Below are positions 20,152 through 22,708 of a stretch of 29,245 nucleotides of DNA, one piece after another. Both the position numbers and the translations under genes were made by a program. Source of the stretch: a virus; the IMG/VR virus record IMGVR_UViG_3300025687_000218, positions 1 through 29,245 of that record; one strand, written 5' to 3'. The notes beneath the pieces are model-generated. The model was not told where the DNA came from and searched no databases. It saw only the letters and a program-made list of their open reading frames with translations. The number at the start of each line of letters is the position of its first letter. Positions within the stretch are counted from its first letter, which is position 1.

Positions 20152-20363
20152 TGGAAAGTCTAATAGCGTGGGTAAAGGCATTACCTGGTTGGTTATCCAC
20201 GTTATTTGACGTATTGTTGATCACTGTGATTTTCGTCACAGCGTTCACATTGATACTTGGAGTATGGCTTGGATTCTGTATCACACGCAAGCGCATGAAC
20301 AGCATTGTAGAGTTACAGTTCTTACCACCCAAGATAACATTTAAAGATAAGCAACCTGAATAA
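20151..20363 (+). CDS. Small single-pass membrane protein, holin-like candidate
   Basis: This 70-residue protein has an amphipathic N-terminus (MESLIAWVKALPGWLSTLFD), one clear membrane segment at about residues 21-44 (VLLITVIFVTAFTLILGVWL) and a basic, polar C-terminus. Its place at the end of the fibre cluster is a common site for lysis genes, so a holin or spanin-like role is possible. No endolysin lies beside it, which weakens that view. The ATG overlaps the upstream stop (TAATG), and the stop codon overlaps the promoter-like box at 20359. Confidence 0.65.
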
Positions 20364-20371
20364 ATACACTA
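20359..20371 (+). promoter_or_regulatory. T4-late-like promoter before predicted RNA
   Basis: AATAAATACACTA at 20359-20371 resembles TATAAATACTATT. With T4 late spacing, where the last A of the box is at -6, +1 falls on 20372. That is the first base of an 11-bp inverted repeat closing the RNA predicted downstream, and no coding frame follows, which supports RNA-only output. Confidence 0.55.
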
Positions 20372-20465
20372 GTGAGATGACGTTACTTTCTATAGTTCGT
20401 CTCTAATAGTACTTACAATCTACGCCATAGGTTGTGCCGTTAAAATCGTCATCTCACACTTTTTA
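20372..20465 (+). ncRNA. Predicted small structured RNA (about 90 nt)
   Basis: GTGAGATGACG (20372-20382) pairs perfectly with CGTCATCTCAC (20447-20457), enclosing 64 bases. Inside, ACAATC (20415-20420) pairs with GGTTGT (20430-20435), with one G-U pair. ACACTTTTTATTT follows the closing stem and could end transcription. The predicted start of the upstream promoter-like box coincides with the first base of the stem. No ORF spans it. It could be a regulatory or packaging-type RNA, but its function is unknown. A simple long-loop terminator is the alternative reading. Confidence 0.55.
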
Positions 20466-20466
20466 T

Positions 20467-20496
20467 TTGACTACATTATCTCATATAAATATATTT
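20467..20496 (+). promoter_or_regulatory. Overlapping sigma70-like and T4-late-like promoter
   Basis: TTGACT (20467-20472) lies 17 bases before TATATT (20490-20495), and TATAAATATATTT (20484-20496) overlaps the latter. Either reading gives a start near 20497, only about 30 bases upstream of the terminator at 20526. Most transcripts from it would be short unless that terminator is controlled. The stretch is very AT-rich, so chance matches are possible. Confidence 0.35.
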
Positions 20497-20525
20497 GTTA
20501 ATCATATAAAATATATCCTTACTGT

Positions 20526-20562
20526 AGCCCGATACGATTAAAAGTATTGGGCTTTTTATTTT
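20526..20562 (+). terminator. Rho-independent terminator before methyltransferase gene
   Basis: AGCCCGATAC (20526-20535) pairs with GTATTGGGCT (20544-20553), with one G-U pair and an 8-base loop, followed by TTTTATTTT. It is a textbook intrinsic terminator closing the fibre transcription unit and isolating the methyltransferase gene, whose promoter-like box begins at its end. Confidence 0.9.
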
Positions 20563-20574
20563 GTAAATACTATA
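20562..20574 (+). promoter_or_regulatory. T4-late-like box touching a start codon
   Basis: TGTAAATACTATA at 20562-20574 matches TATAAATACTATT except at the second and last positions. Predicted +1 is at 20575, inside the ATG at 20574-20576, so the mRNA may be leaderless. No Shine-Dalgarno sequence precedes this start. Confidence 0.5.
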
Positions 20575-21086
20575 TGGAACTAAAATATAGGCACGATATA
20601 GTCAAACTAGTCAAACATCAAGGTATAGGTATAGAACTTGGTGTCGCTAAGGGCGAGTTCGCAGAACGCATACTTAAATCAAATCATCTTAGTGAGTTTC
20701 ACGGTGTAGACAAATATGATGATCACCACAATGAGCAAGAATACCAAAATACATTGAAACGATTGATGGTATATAAGAACTATACATTACATCGCATGTA
20801 TTTCCATGAAGCATTAGAATTATTTCCAGACAATCATTTTGATTTCATCTACATAGATGGATATGCCCATACTGGACAAGACAATGGTAAGACACTATAT
20901 GATTGGTATGGTAAATGTAAACACAATGGTATATTTGCTGGTGATGACTATACACCACAATACCAAAAGACTATAGACAGTGTAAACAAGTTCGTGAAAG
21001 AACATGATTTAGAACTACATGTTATAAACTGTAGCGAAAATACCGTATGGAGTAGAAATCCTACATGGTACGTGGTCAAGAGATAG
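20574..21086 (+). CDS. Class I SAM-dependent methyltransferase
   Basis: This 170-residue protein carries a Rossmann-type methyltransferase core. Motif I, GIELGVAKGEFAERI, lies at 18-33, the acidic residue after strand 2 is in GVDKYDD (44-50), FDFIYIDGYAHTG is at 89-101 and an NGIFAGDDY strand-turn at 118-126. This layout matches the Methyltransf_24 and TylF-like families, which often methylate sugars or small molecules. The start is ATG 20574: a longer frame from TTG at 20547 would run through the terminator hairpin. It may belong functionally with the glycosyltransferase-like genes further on, as a glycan-modifying enzyme; this is inference. Confidence 0.8.
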   Translation: MELKYRHDIVKLVKHQGIGIELGVAKGEFAERILKSNHLSEFHGVDKYDDHHNEQEYQNTLKRLMVYKNYTLHRMYFHEALELFPDNHFDFIYIDGYAHTGQDNGKTLYDWYGKCKHNGIFAGDDYTPQYQKTIDSVNKFVKEHDLELHVINCSENTVWSRNPTWYVVKR

Positions 21087-21310
21087 TACCCCGAATCGGA
21101 GCCCGTTCGGGATCACACGGGAAAAAAACCTAGATGTACCACCTAGGGAACTCCTGCTACTGCTTACCGAGAAGCATCATTATTATTTAAGTTGAGATGT
21201 AGTAGTTCGTCTACTCGGGAGGCCCTAGCGTATCGGCGTCAGATACGTTGCCACCAAGAGGATTGCCTTAGTTATGCGAGTATGTTACGATACTCTTCAG
21301 TTTCCGTAGC

Positions 21311-21487
21311 CTAGCGGTTGCGCATCAACCCAGACATCTCAATGATATTTAAGATTGTGAAGTTATTACATTTTGTCTTGCGAAATAGGTTACATTCCGC
21401 ATCGTCAACATCTTTAGCACCAACGATCTGTTCCTTGTTGGTGTCATCATCGTCATGATCTGTATATTGTATCAGATATTGTGGCAT
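21311..21487 (-). CDS. Small minus-strand protein (58 aa), probable
   Basis: Reading from ATG at 21487 leftwards, the protein starts MPQYLIQYTDHDDDDTNKEQ and continues IVGAKDVDDAECNLFRKTKC to a strand-like end (FTILNIIEM). The order strand, acidic turn, 'AKDVDDAE' helix and final strand matches small conserved phage proteins of the 'visible in marine T4-like phages' type, so it looks like a real fold. A TTG start at 21520 would add 11 residues. Neither start has a clear ribosome site. It would be the only minus-strand gene, and it sits inside the hairpin-rich region, so a chance ORF remains possible. Confidence 0.45.
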   Translation of the reverse strand: MPQYLIQYTDHDDDDTNKEQIVGAKDVDDAECNLFRKTKCNNFTILNIIEMSGLMRNR

Positions 21488-21540
21488 AAGATAAAAGCCG
21501 ATTCGCGCACACCTCGGCAAACAGTGTAATGAAGGCTAAG

Positions 21541-21612
21541 TACTAACCTCGCGCTAAAATGATCAACATAATATTGGAGTGAATGAGCGCGTTGATCATT
21601 TAATAGTTAGTA
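21541..21612. repeat. Compound inverted repeat
   Basis: An outer 7-bp stem (TACTAAC 21541-21547 with GTTAGTA 21606-21612) encloses a perfect 11-bp stem (AAATGATCAAC 21557-21567 with GTTGATCATTT 21591-21601) and a 23-base loop containing GGAGTGAATGAGCGC. It is the most extensive symmetric structure in the non-coding region. It could be an RNA domain, a protein-binding palindrome or part of an origin. Confidence 0.75.
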
Positions 21613-21693
21613 TACATGACTTATCTATCAAAGCAAGCATTTTTGGTAAAATAGCCAAAAACACACCTTATTCCATACTTTTTTATTGGATCG

Positions 21694-21706
21694 TGTAAAT
21701 AGTACT
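21694..21706 (+). promoter_or_regulatory. T4-late-like box inside non-coding region
   Basis: TGTAAATAGTACT at 21694-21706 keeps the TAAATA core and predicts +1 at 21707. No ORF follows for 540 bases, but several hairpins and a strong terminator-like stem at 22086 do. It may start a non-coding RNA of about 400 nt. Confidence 0.35.
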
Positions 21707-22085
21707 AGATACTAATACGAACTATAACACGGTTCAACTGCTGGATCCTAGAGTATACAAATACTGACAATATAAGGATCTGGGTCGTAGAAATACGATA
21801 GACGACACAGCAAGTCAAAGTTATAAACCATGTAAACATTGGTCACAGATGCTAACAGGCGTTATTAATCATAACGATACTATTGGATTATAGTAACAAC
21901 TGAACCCAAAAACAAACTGTGATGTCATTGATGATGGCAACGATGAATGGATAAAGTATGTGCTGTTTTACATCCATGGTCCTGGCCGTGTGTTCCCGCT
22001 CACGGGCAGTGAGTGAGTAACAAAAATAATAAAAATATTTTTATATGTATTTGGTCTGTTTTGGTTGACCTGAGTACACAAGTCA

Positions 22086-22140
22086 GTGATGAATGAAGAG
22101 GTCGCTTTCGCTCCCTCTTTTCATTCATCACAGATTTTTA
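22086..22140 (+). terminator. Strong terminator-like hairpin
   Basis: GTGATGAATGAAGAGG (22086-22101) pairs with CCTCTTTTCATTCATCAC (22114-22131), leaving a two-base bulge and a loop around TCGCTTTCGCT. CAGATTTTTATATT follows. The long stem and T-run fit an intrinsic terminator for transcripts crossing the non-coding region. It also shields the downstream promoter at 22212 from read-through. Confidence 0.7.
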
Positions 22141-22151
22141 TATTAATAATT

Positions 22152-22180
22152 TATGGGGTGCGATTTGATCGCAGCCCATA
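22152..22180. repeat. Hairpin with TTG loop
   Basis: TATGGGGTGCGAT pairs with ATCGCAGCCCATA, with one G-G mismatch and a 3-base TTG loop. No T-run follows. It lies between the terminator and the consensus promoter, so it could be an operator-like palindrome or the end of an RNA element. Confidence 0.6.
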
Positions 22181-22211
22181 GATGACTAACATCTGTTGGT
22201 CTCCTTTCTGT

Positions 22212-22240
22212 TTGACATGTAATTTCTTTTCTATTATTAT
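22212..22240 (+). promoter_or_regulatory. Consensus sigma70 promoter, probably early
   Basis: TTGACA (22212-22217), a 17-base spacer and TATTAT (22235-22240) match the bacterial sigma70 consensus at 11 of 12 positions. The ATG of the next gene is at 22247, seven bases after the -10 box, so transcription should begin at or beside the A of ATG, giving a leaderless message. This is the best host-type promoter seen in the window and is likely used early in infection. Confidence 0.8.
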
Positions 22241-22246
22241 CAAGAA

Positions 22247-22708
22247 ATGAAACAAATAGAACTAATTCATGGCAAACATAGCATATCTCTTATACCTCAG
22301 CAATCAGGTAAGACACATGTAGCACGTATTTTTTGTCATACATGTCAGAAATACCTGAATTGGGCTAGTAAAGACATGTATAGGTATTGGTGTAAAAATA
22401 ATTATAAGTCAATGGAGTTAAGTGATTTCTACCAAGATTTTGATAGAAATGGAGATAAAACACCTAAACCAGATATCTTATACATACCAAAAAAAGAAAC
22501 GATAGTTTGGCTAGATGTGAGTTACATAGAAAAAGACAATGCCAAAAACCATGGGGCAAGATGGAGCCCCGGTCATAAGAGTTGGTATACCCACACAGGT
22601 AACCCTGACCTTGAAAGTCTCATGCGTTATGTTAGGGTAGAAGATATGGCAGAGATATATGAATATATCAATAGTAAAGGCAATGATTTTGCTTACTATG
22701 ATAAATAA
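22247..22708 (+). CDS. CxxC-motif protein with DUF5710-like domain
   Basis: This 153-residue protein joins two parts. Residues 17-50 (LIPQQSGKTHVARIFCHTCQ onwards) have a CxxC knuckle with a following YLNWASKD, a pattern common in small phage proteins. Residues 84-117 (TIVWLDVSYIEKDNAKNHGA then RWSPGHKSWY) fit the DUF5710-like motif 'LDVPxxEKDxAKxxGARWxxxxKxWY', thought to occur in nucleic-acid-related enzymes. It is the first gene behind the consensus promoter and has no ribosome site, suggesting leaderless translation. An early DNA- or RNA-binding role is plausible but unproven. Confidence 0.65.
   Translation: MKQIELIHGKHSISLIPQQSGKTHVARIFCHTCQKYLNWASKDMYRYWCKNNYKSMELSDFYQDFDRNGDKTPKPDILYIPKKETIVWLDVSYIEKDNAKNHGARWSPGHKSWYTHTGNPDLESLMRYVRVEDMAEIYEYINSKGNDFAYYDK

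Follow-up and report, generated by a model that had tools for sequence, protein, structure and literature searches.

An apparently undescribed array of pseudoknot modules and other conserved structured elements in an intergenic gap of an uncultured tailed phage

Introduction

Among the structured RNAs encoded by phages, GOLLD RNA is often found near tRNA genes. GOLLD and ROOL are each one RNA of 600–800 bases, whereas the array described here consists of loose modules of ~45–100 bases with genes between them. Like the array, GOLLD and ROOL are pseudoknot-rich, conserved, phage-encoded RNAs of obscure function, and ROOL RNA forms a nanocage of identical chains (PMC12286853). STAXI (RF01728) consists of two or three tandem copies of a pseudoknot, which may act as RNA or as DNA (PMC2864571). 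The manA and wcaG motifs (RF01745 and RF01761) are candidate cis-regulatory structured RNAs found in phage 5′ leaders (PMC2864571).

We analysed an IMG/VR virus record that is 29,245 bases long and is referred to in full as the window. It contains portal, tape measure, tail fibre and terminase genes, and the related terminases found in named phages are all less than 60% identical to that of the window. Between a methyltransferase-like gene that ends at 21086 and a DUF5710 gene that starts at 22247 lies a gap of 1,160 bases (21087–22246), and positions 21088–21650 of this gap are an array of pseudoknot modules. STAXI is the closest known kind. The two are alike in having tandem pseudoknots, which are modules A and B in the window and modules A, B and C in the relatives L048, L090 and L158. 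However, STAXI repeats frequently carry UUCG tetraloops, none of which was noted by eye in the array modules, and STAXI was reported from Enterobacteriales, whereas the array modules often stand ahead of the start codons of varied small phage genes. The RF01728 model matched none of eight records (the window and seven relatives) at E ≤ 10. The modules share with manA and wcaG the character of candidate leader RNAs of phages, but they have no Rfam match here, are repeated and recur before unrelated genes.

Materials and Methods

Relatives (L numbers) were ~80 contigs collected from IMG/VR through searches with the terminase and neighbouring genes, and were drawn mainly from one phage group. A few match the window almost exactly in parts and are uninformative on conservation. 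Useful homologues for the left half of the gap were L023, L031, L048, L090 and L158, with L013, L025, L027, L030, L032 and others contributing single modules; for the right half the sole useful homologue was L023. Covariation counts were restricted to module B, because a MAFFT alignment of all module types together misplaces the stems. The module covariance model came from a single building round. Perfect helices were counted in 15 regions, i.e., 12 array regions from the window and its relatives, plus block C and the hairpins of the window.

Results and Discussion

Composition of the gap

The gap is the only one of at least 350 bases in the window. The original prediction that almost all other gaps are shorter than 70 bases is roughly correct, although gaps of 279 and 183 bases also occur. 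No ATG-start ORF of at least 60 aa lies between 21086 and 22247. The description of the gap as mostly non-coding missed a minus-strand ATG ORF of 58 codons (21487–21311), however, and is probably not quite right, since this ORF is placed like the genes that follow modules in the relatives.

Comparison with the relatives revealed that base pairs rather than codons are conserved in the gap, and the sequences support a conserved structured phage RNA over a decayed gene. The proposal of a large phage RNA stands insofar as a structured RNA that covaries in related phages is present, but neither the suggested kinship with GOLLD or ROOL nor a single 1-kb RNA could be upheld. The gap is instead a set of distinct elements that probably lie on both strands and enclose a small ORF. 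Screening with Rfam, which had been advised for GOLLD, ROOL and other large RNAs, returned no match to any of these models; at gathering score nothing in the window matched, and on 20360–22400 no credible match was found up to E = 10, the low-stringency matches there being to eukaryotic families at chance level. The GOLLD and ROOL models also had no match in L158, the relative with the most complete array. No tRNA gene was found in the window, and membership of either family was rejected. When the whole region and the arrays of two relatives were searched against 50,697 phage records, only short, chance-like matches were returned. Judged against Rfam 15 and open-access papers, the RNA feature of the gap is real and apparently undescribed.

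Of the smaller features first described, the GAAA-loop hairpin (TCGTA-GAAA-TACGA, 21785–21798) and the compound inverted repeat (22086–22131) are present, and so are structures corresponding to the roughly eleven stems, most of which are individually unexceptional against chance. A promoter-like box at 21694 was not among the matches of the promoter scan, for which better candidates are found at 21647–21609 on the minus strand and at 22212–22240 on the plus strand, and the inverted repeat taken for a strong terminator-like hairpin at the end of the region is no clear terminator. The folding energy of 21087–22000 was only moderately unusual (z ~ −2.0 for the plus strand and ~ −3.2 for the minus strand, 20 shuffles), with the largest excess found at 22020–22240 (z ~ −7). 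Perfect helices numbered 40, compared to 10.2 ± 3.4 in dinucleotide shuffles of the 15 regions. This comparative evidence is much stronger than the folding energy.

Structure and covariation of the pseudoknot module

The left half of the gap contains the following parts:

21088–21154, minus strand: module A, with S1 CCCGA/TCGGG (21090–21111), S2 CCCGT/ACGGG (21102–21121) and a possible S3 GGAG/CTCC
21192–21342, minus strand: domain 2b, closed by TTGAGATGT/ACATCTCAA, with the hairpins AGTAG/CTACT and GGTTG/CAACC
21311–21487, minus strand: possible small gene of 58 aa (MPQYLIQYTDHDDDD...), with its ATG 9 bases past module B
21488–21554, minus strand: module B, with S1 GCCGA/TCGGC, S2 ACAC/GTGT and a possible S3 GCGC/GCGC, followed by TTTT
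21557–21601, minus strand: terminal hairpin of the array, AAATGATCAAC/GTTGATCATTT, an 11-bp perfect inverted repeat
21609–21647, minus strand: leftward early promoter candidate, ACCAAAAATGC-TTGCTT-16-TATACT

Read as RNA in the preferred sense, the parts of a module follow the order S3a, inner hairpin P4, S2a, a few bases, S1a, S2b, S3b, AA(A) and S1b. S1 is a hairpin of 4–8 pairs, the loop of which pairs with upstream sequence. S1 and S2 together reached a covariation score of 0.291 in 13 distinct module B copies, compared to 0.122 ± 0.023 in shuffled controls, none of which (0 of 500) was as high, and the score did not exceed 0.085 when the partners were slid. S1 alone scored 0.359 against 0.099 ± 0.031 in 17 covariance-model copies, the alignment of which was fitted to the model. 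When S2 was tested independently of hand-picked pairs, the combined p for 32 modules was 1.6e-6, an inexact value given that the modules are related by descent; tables of hand-picked pairs were left out of the evidence. With the same unbiased test and the same inexactness from common descent, p for S3 was 0.0023, which lends S3 weak support. The changes in S3 (GCGCA/UGCGC, GCACA/UGUGC and GCACU/AGUGC) are consistent with compensation, and one copy has an 8-pair version, GUUGCGCA/UGCGCAAC. The S2 pair of module C was unsupported. A module is a short GC-rich hairpin that takes part in a well-supported pseudoknot, with S3 as a suspected further pseudoknot. An HDV-like ribozyme topology was considered and rejected, as the loop lengths differ from those of the known fold and the catalytic joining segment is absent.

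The topology of module A is common to L023, L031, L048, L090 and L158, where its S2 pairs differ (CTTG/CAAG and CACAT/ATGTG). The covariance model matched module B of the window at 21487–21528 (E 1.1e-6), the window being among the sequences from which the model was built. The terminal hairpin keeps its pairing in relatives with other sequence, i.e., TGCTTAC/GTAAGCA, GATTGAC/GTCAATC and TGATCACC/GGTGATCA. Domain 2b is homologous to L090 682–527 (76%, E 2e-24 by blastn; 1e-48 by nhmmer with L090 in the profile), and its stems show the compensatory changes TTTAGATGT/ACATCTAAA, AATAG/CTATT and GAGTG/CACTC. Domain 2 is of two types without evident similarity to each other, 2a (L158, L023, L030 and L032) and 2b (the window and L090). 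The loop pairing of domain 2a also covaries, being GTGC/GCAC in L030 and L032 and GTCTG/CAGAC in L023.

Distribution and strand of the array

About 33 module copies were listed from 14 phage contigs, and two more were added later. The module B model had 18 matches in the fetched loci and was found in 14 of 30 whole records of relatives; among the sequences searched, its matches were confined to the related phage group. A pattern for the array core had two matches in Prevotella among GTDB genomes, which is about chance level, and the module model missed both loci. One copy that was absent from model building, in L172 (a locus in the record behind L038), is flanked by a stop codon and an ATG and has the expected S3 pair and inner hairpin. 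The order of the array is A-domain 2-B-C in L158 and L090, and the same but without domain 2 in L048; in L023, C is followed by A-domain 2a-B, and in L031, A is followed by a minus-strand gene and B-C. Clusters of small minus-strand genes encoding about 50–170 aa separate the late from the rightward early genes in L023 (2544–2699), L025, L013, L031, L048, L090 and L158; at most one such gene is retained in the window.

In the window, the minus strand is the likely strand of the array. This is favoured by three agreeing clues, i.e., the promoter, the ORF starts after modules and the end pair of S2. A promoter of the form [A/G]CC[C/A]..AA-TTG-N16/17-TATAAT stands at the same right-end place in L013, L031, L041, L048 and L158, and its TATACT variant in L032 and the window (21647–21609); region 21602–21653 is 75% identical to L048 1449–1500. 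The type CCCA..-TTG-N16/17-TATAAT is also seen elsewhere in related phages (L071 3135, L082 4135 and 4502, L089 5480), so that it probably serves these phages as a general early promoter. Read in the minus sense, S2 ends in a G-U pair in 7 copies and in an A-U pair in 5; in the opposite sense these would be A.C mismatches. Modules occur in both early operons of the relatives, and the copies in the rightward operon (L006, L025, L030, L031, L087, L089 and L172) have reversed orientation, following transcription. A plus-strand array RNA, considered from the order of the parts, was rejected in view of the promoter, the positions of the start codons and the G-U/A-U pair. It should be noted that an unbiased count of wobble helices gave 8 of the A.C type (minus-strand G-U) against 4.8 ± 1.9 expected, and 5 of the G.T type against 4.9. 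With this slight excess of A.C and none of G.T, wobble pairs do not settle the strand and would also be compatible with a structure that acts as DNA. In L023, a strong plus-strand terminator just past module B suggests plus-strand transcription at that site.

The right half of the gap

The following elements were recognized to the right of the array:

21716–22019, plus strand: block C, of 300 bases, with the GNRA-loop hairpin given above
22086–22131, no strand assigned: hairpin D, with a 12-bp stem
22152–22180, no strand assigned: hairpin E, TATGGG..TTG..CCCATA, with a 13-position stem
22184–22201, no strand assigned: hairpin F, GACTAAC ATCT GTTGGTC, a terminator-like match of the scan
22212–22240, plus strand: rightward early promoter candidate, TTGACA-17-TATTAT, with 11 of 12 consensus matches

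Block C is 88.9% identical to L023 3518–3858, whereas identity is ~72–77% in almost all remaining aligned stretches of these genomes, the exceptions being a few short stretches of 42–67 bases at 79–88%; with block C known from two sequences, this identity fits recent exchange and selection alike. Stop codons occur in all six frames of block C in both the window and L023. The plus strand gives the better consensus fold (−70.7, against −58.6 for the minus strand), in which 12 changed pairs are kept, two of them having changed on both sides. The hairpin loop reads GAAA in the window and GTAA in L023, both of which are GNRA. These observations on two sequences suggest that block C is probably a plus-strand RNA. 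A search of viral contigs for the pattern ACACGGTTCAACTGC yielded no further homologue of block C, and the two matches that were inspected (L136 and L145) look coding.

Block C could alternatively be a replication origin or packaging site that owes its identity with L023 to recent exchange, which would be compatible with any reading of the array. In favour of this are its place between divergent early promoters, an identity far above that of the remaining parts of both genomes, and the fact that only two copies are known. Against this, the GNRA loop is conserved and the plus-strand fold is the better one; moreover, no iteron families were found in 20360–22400 and the cumulative GC skew rises throughout the window without a turn. 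We regard this alternative as possible but somewhat doubtful for block C, and the replication origin first proposed for the gap as a whole drew no support from iterons or skew.

The three hairpins (22086–22201) stand just upstream of the rightward promoter candidate, which is itself just ahead of the DUF5710 ATG (22247), with its predicted transcript start almost at the ATG. Hairpin D has an 11-bp stem in the same place in L023, where 10 of the 11 pairs are changed and all are paired. In hairpin E, 3 of 13 positions are changed in L023, again all paired, with two full compensations. The counterpart of hairpin F in L023 is CTAGCA TTCA TGCTGG.

Genes behind the modules and proposed function

An ORF starts within 60 bases past the module in 18 of 33 modules. 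In 16 of the 33 the distance is 2–33 bases, and these modules stand right before start codons in the sense of transcription, as cis-acting leader or intercistronic RNAs do. A Shine-Dalgarno-like word precedes only 1 of the 16 genes right behind modules, compared to 20 of the 29 other genes of the window (p 5e-5). The genes behind modules belong to several families, which makes a gene-specific riboswitch unlikely. In the window, the 58-aa ORF occupies the location of such genes in relatives and is without a Shine-Dalgarno sequence; it had no homologue among the phages and relatives searched. Because modules recur shortly ahead of start codons without a Shine-Dalgarno sequence, the function best supported by the sequences would be a general cis-acting role on the downstream gene, at translation start or by attenuation.

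We infer that in this uncultured tailed phage the gap may be a control region that separates the leftward from the rightward early operons. The left half would be transcribed from the minus strand as an early transcript that starts at ~21602, runs through the terminal hairpin, module B, the 58-aa ORF, domain 2b and module A, and may end at the inner hairpin and U-run of module A; this inner hairpin with its U7 (21147–21122) resembles a minus-strand terminator in the terminator scan. About half of the module copies of the relatives, i.e., those a few bases before start codons without a Shine-Dalgarno sequence, would act on the gene directly downstream, and arrays without genes would be remnants after the loss of accessory genes. 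The right half would be separate, with a plus-strand RNA (block C) and three hairpins ahead of the rightward promoter. Covariation, structure, recurrence and position of the modules are shown by the sequences, and the strand of the array, its transcription and a cis-acting function are inferred from them. Speaking against this explanation are the modules of L030 and L032 that are not directly followed by a gene, the U-tract right after S1 in five modules, which could be plain terminators, and the 58-aa ORF, for which no homologue was found. This combination is our best explanation of the whole, and we give it about an even chance of being correct.

An unlikely reading of the array is that it is an independent, trans-acting non-coding RNA, small and ornate and GOLLD- or ROOL-like in spirit, to which the neighbouring genes are incidental. 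The A-domain 2a-B-C array of L158 spans ~450 bases in which no gene is evident, domain 2a and module C persist in L030 and L032 where no gene follows them directly, the loop pairing within domain 2a covaries, and the inner hairpin and U-run of module A could terminate such an RNA. However, lone modules stand a few bases ahead of the start codons of unrelated genes, the order and number of domains vary freely, and the array is interrupted by minus-strand genes in L031 and probably in the window.

It is quite improbable that the modules act as DNA, i.e., as single-stranded hairpins or pseudoknots for cassette recombination, replication or single-strand promoters. The authors of the STAXI report considered single-stranded DNA (PMC2864571), the helices here are, with few exceptions, perfect Watson-Crick helices in which G.T is not in excess and A.C only slightly so, and the modules occupy intergenic space beside differing genes. 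But S2 retains a G-U/A-U pair in the transcribed sense, the orientation tracks transcription in both operons, and a recombination core like RYYYAAC/GTTRRRY was not seen by eye; integron attC sites were rejected by the absence of the GTTRRRY core. An equally small probability is assigned to intrinsic terminators of the ordinary kind, or to bidirectional transcript ends located between convergent units. In favour of this reading, at least 4 U follow S1 directly in 5 of 33 modules (winB, L023B, L031m, L048B and L090B). Against it, most modules lack a U-tract, many stand just ahead of a start codon of the same operon, and the conserved loop sequence and upstream pairing are not needed by a terminator.

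Returning to a cis-acting role, a bolder version of it is that a portable pseudoknot module replaces the Shine-Dalgarno sequence and regulates new early genes that lack one, with module and gene together forming mobile cassettes. We hold this to be a long shot. If it is true, newly acquired early genes of phages would be translated without a Shine-Dalgarno sequence and under pseudoknot control. In any case, the many modules before unrelated genes that lack a Shine-Dalgarno sequence offer a direct test of whether phage pseudoknots control or replace ordinary translation start. The apparently undescribed, well-covarying module would join the few known repeated pseudoknot RNAs, and element 0 and block C are two further candidates.

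Element 0 and other elements near the gap

Element 0 (20364–20560), a structured RNA of the plus strand, lies outside the gap, directly after a 70-aa holin-like gene:

20372–20457, plus strand: element 0, an outer stem GTGAGATGACG/CGTCATCTCAC around the hairpin CAATCTA-CGCCA-TAGGTTG, then a terminator at 20526–20553

The GCCATAG loop is conserved while the outer stems differ in L025, L030, L031, L032, L048, L057, L060, L090 and L158. The G-U pairs support the plus strand, as helices of the one-G.T type numbered 4 (0.5 expected) and those of the one-A.C type 0 (0.6 expected). In the window, element 0 matched no Rfam family.

A COG2908 RNA (RF02939) is located between element 0 and the array in four relatives, above the cut-off in L031, L048 and L090 and below it in L158. 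It is absent from the window, and its plus-strand structure is unlike that of the array. Its occurrence in these phages indicates that the motif is phage-borne, at least here. The sites are:

L031 1006–1050: COG2908 RNA
L048 865–909: COG2908 RNA
L090 1081–1037: COG2908 RNA
L158 5334–5379: COG2908 RNA, below the cut-off

The inverted motifs AATCAATGACTTACGTAA...TTGATTTTATTAGG, which were not noticed in the window, are repeated in the divergent region of relatives, at L025 1430–1590, L027 400–450 and 1200–1270, L030 3060–3260, L031 3340–3560 and L048 2040–2260, and are possible operators or a possible origin.
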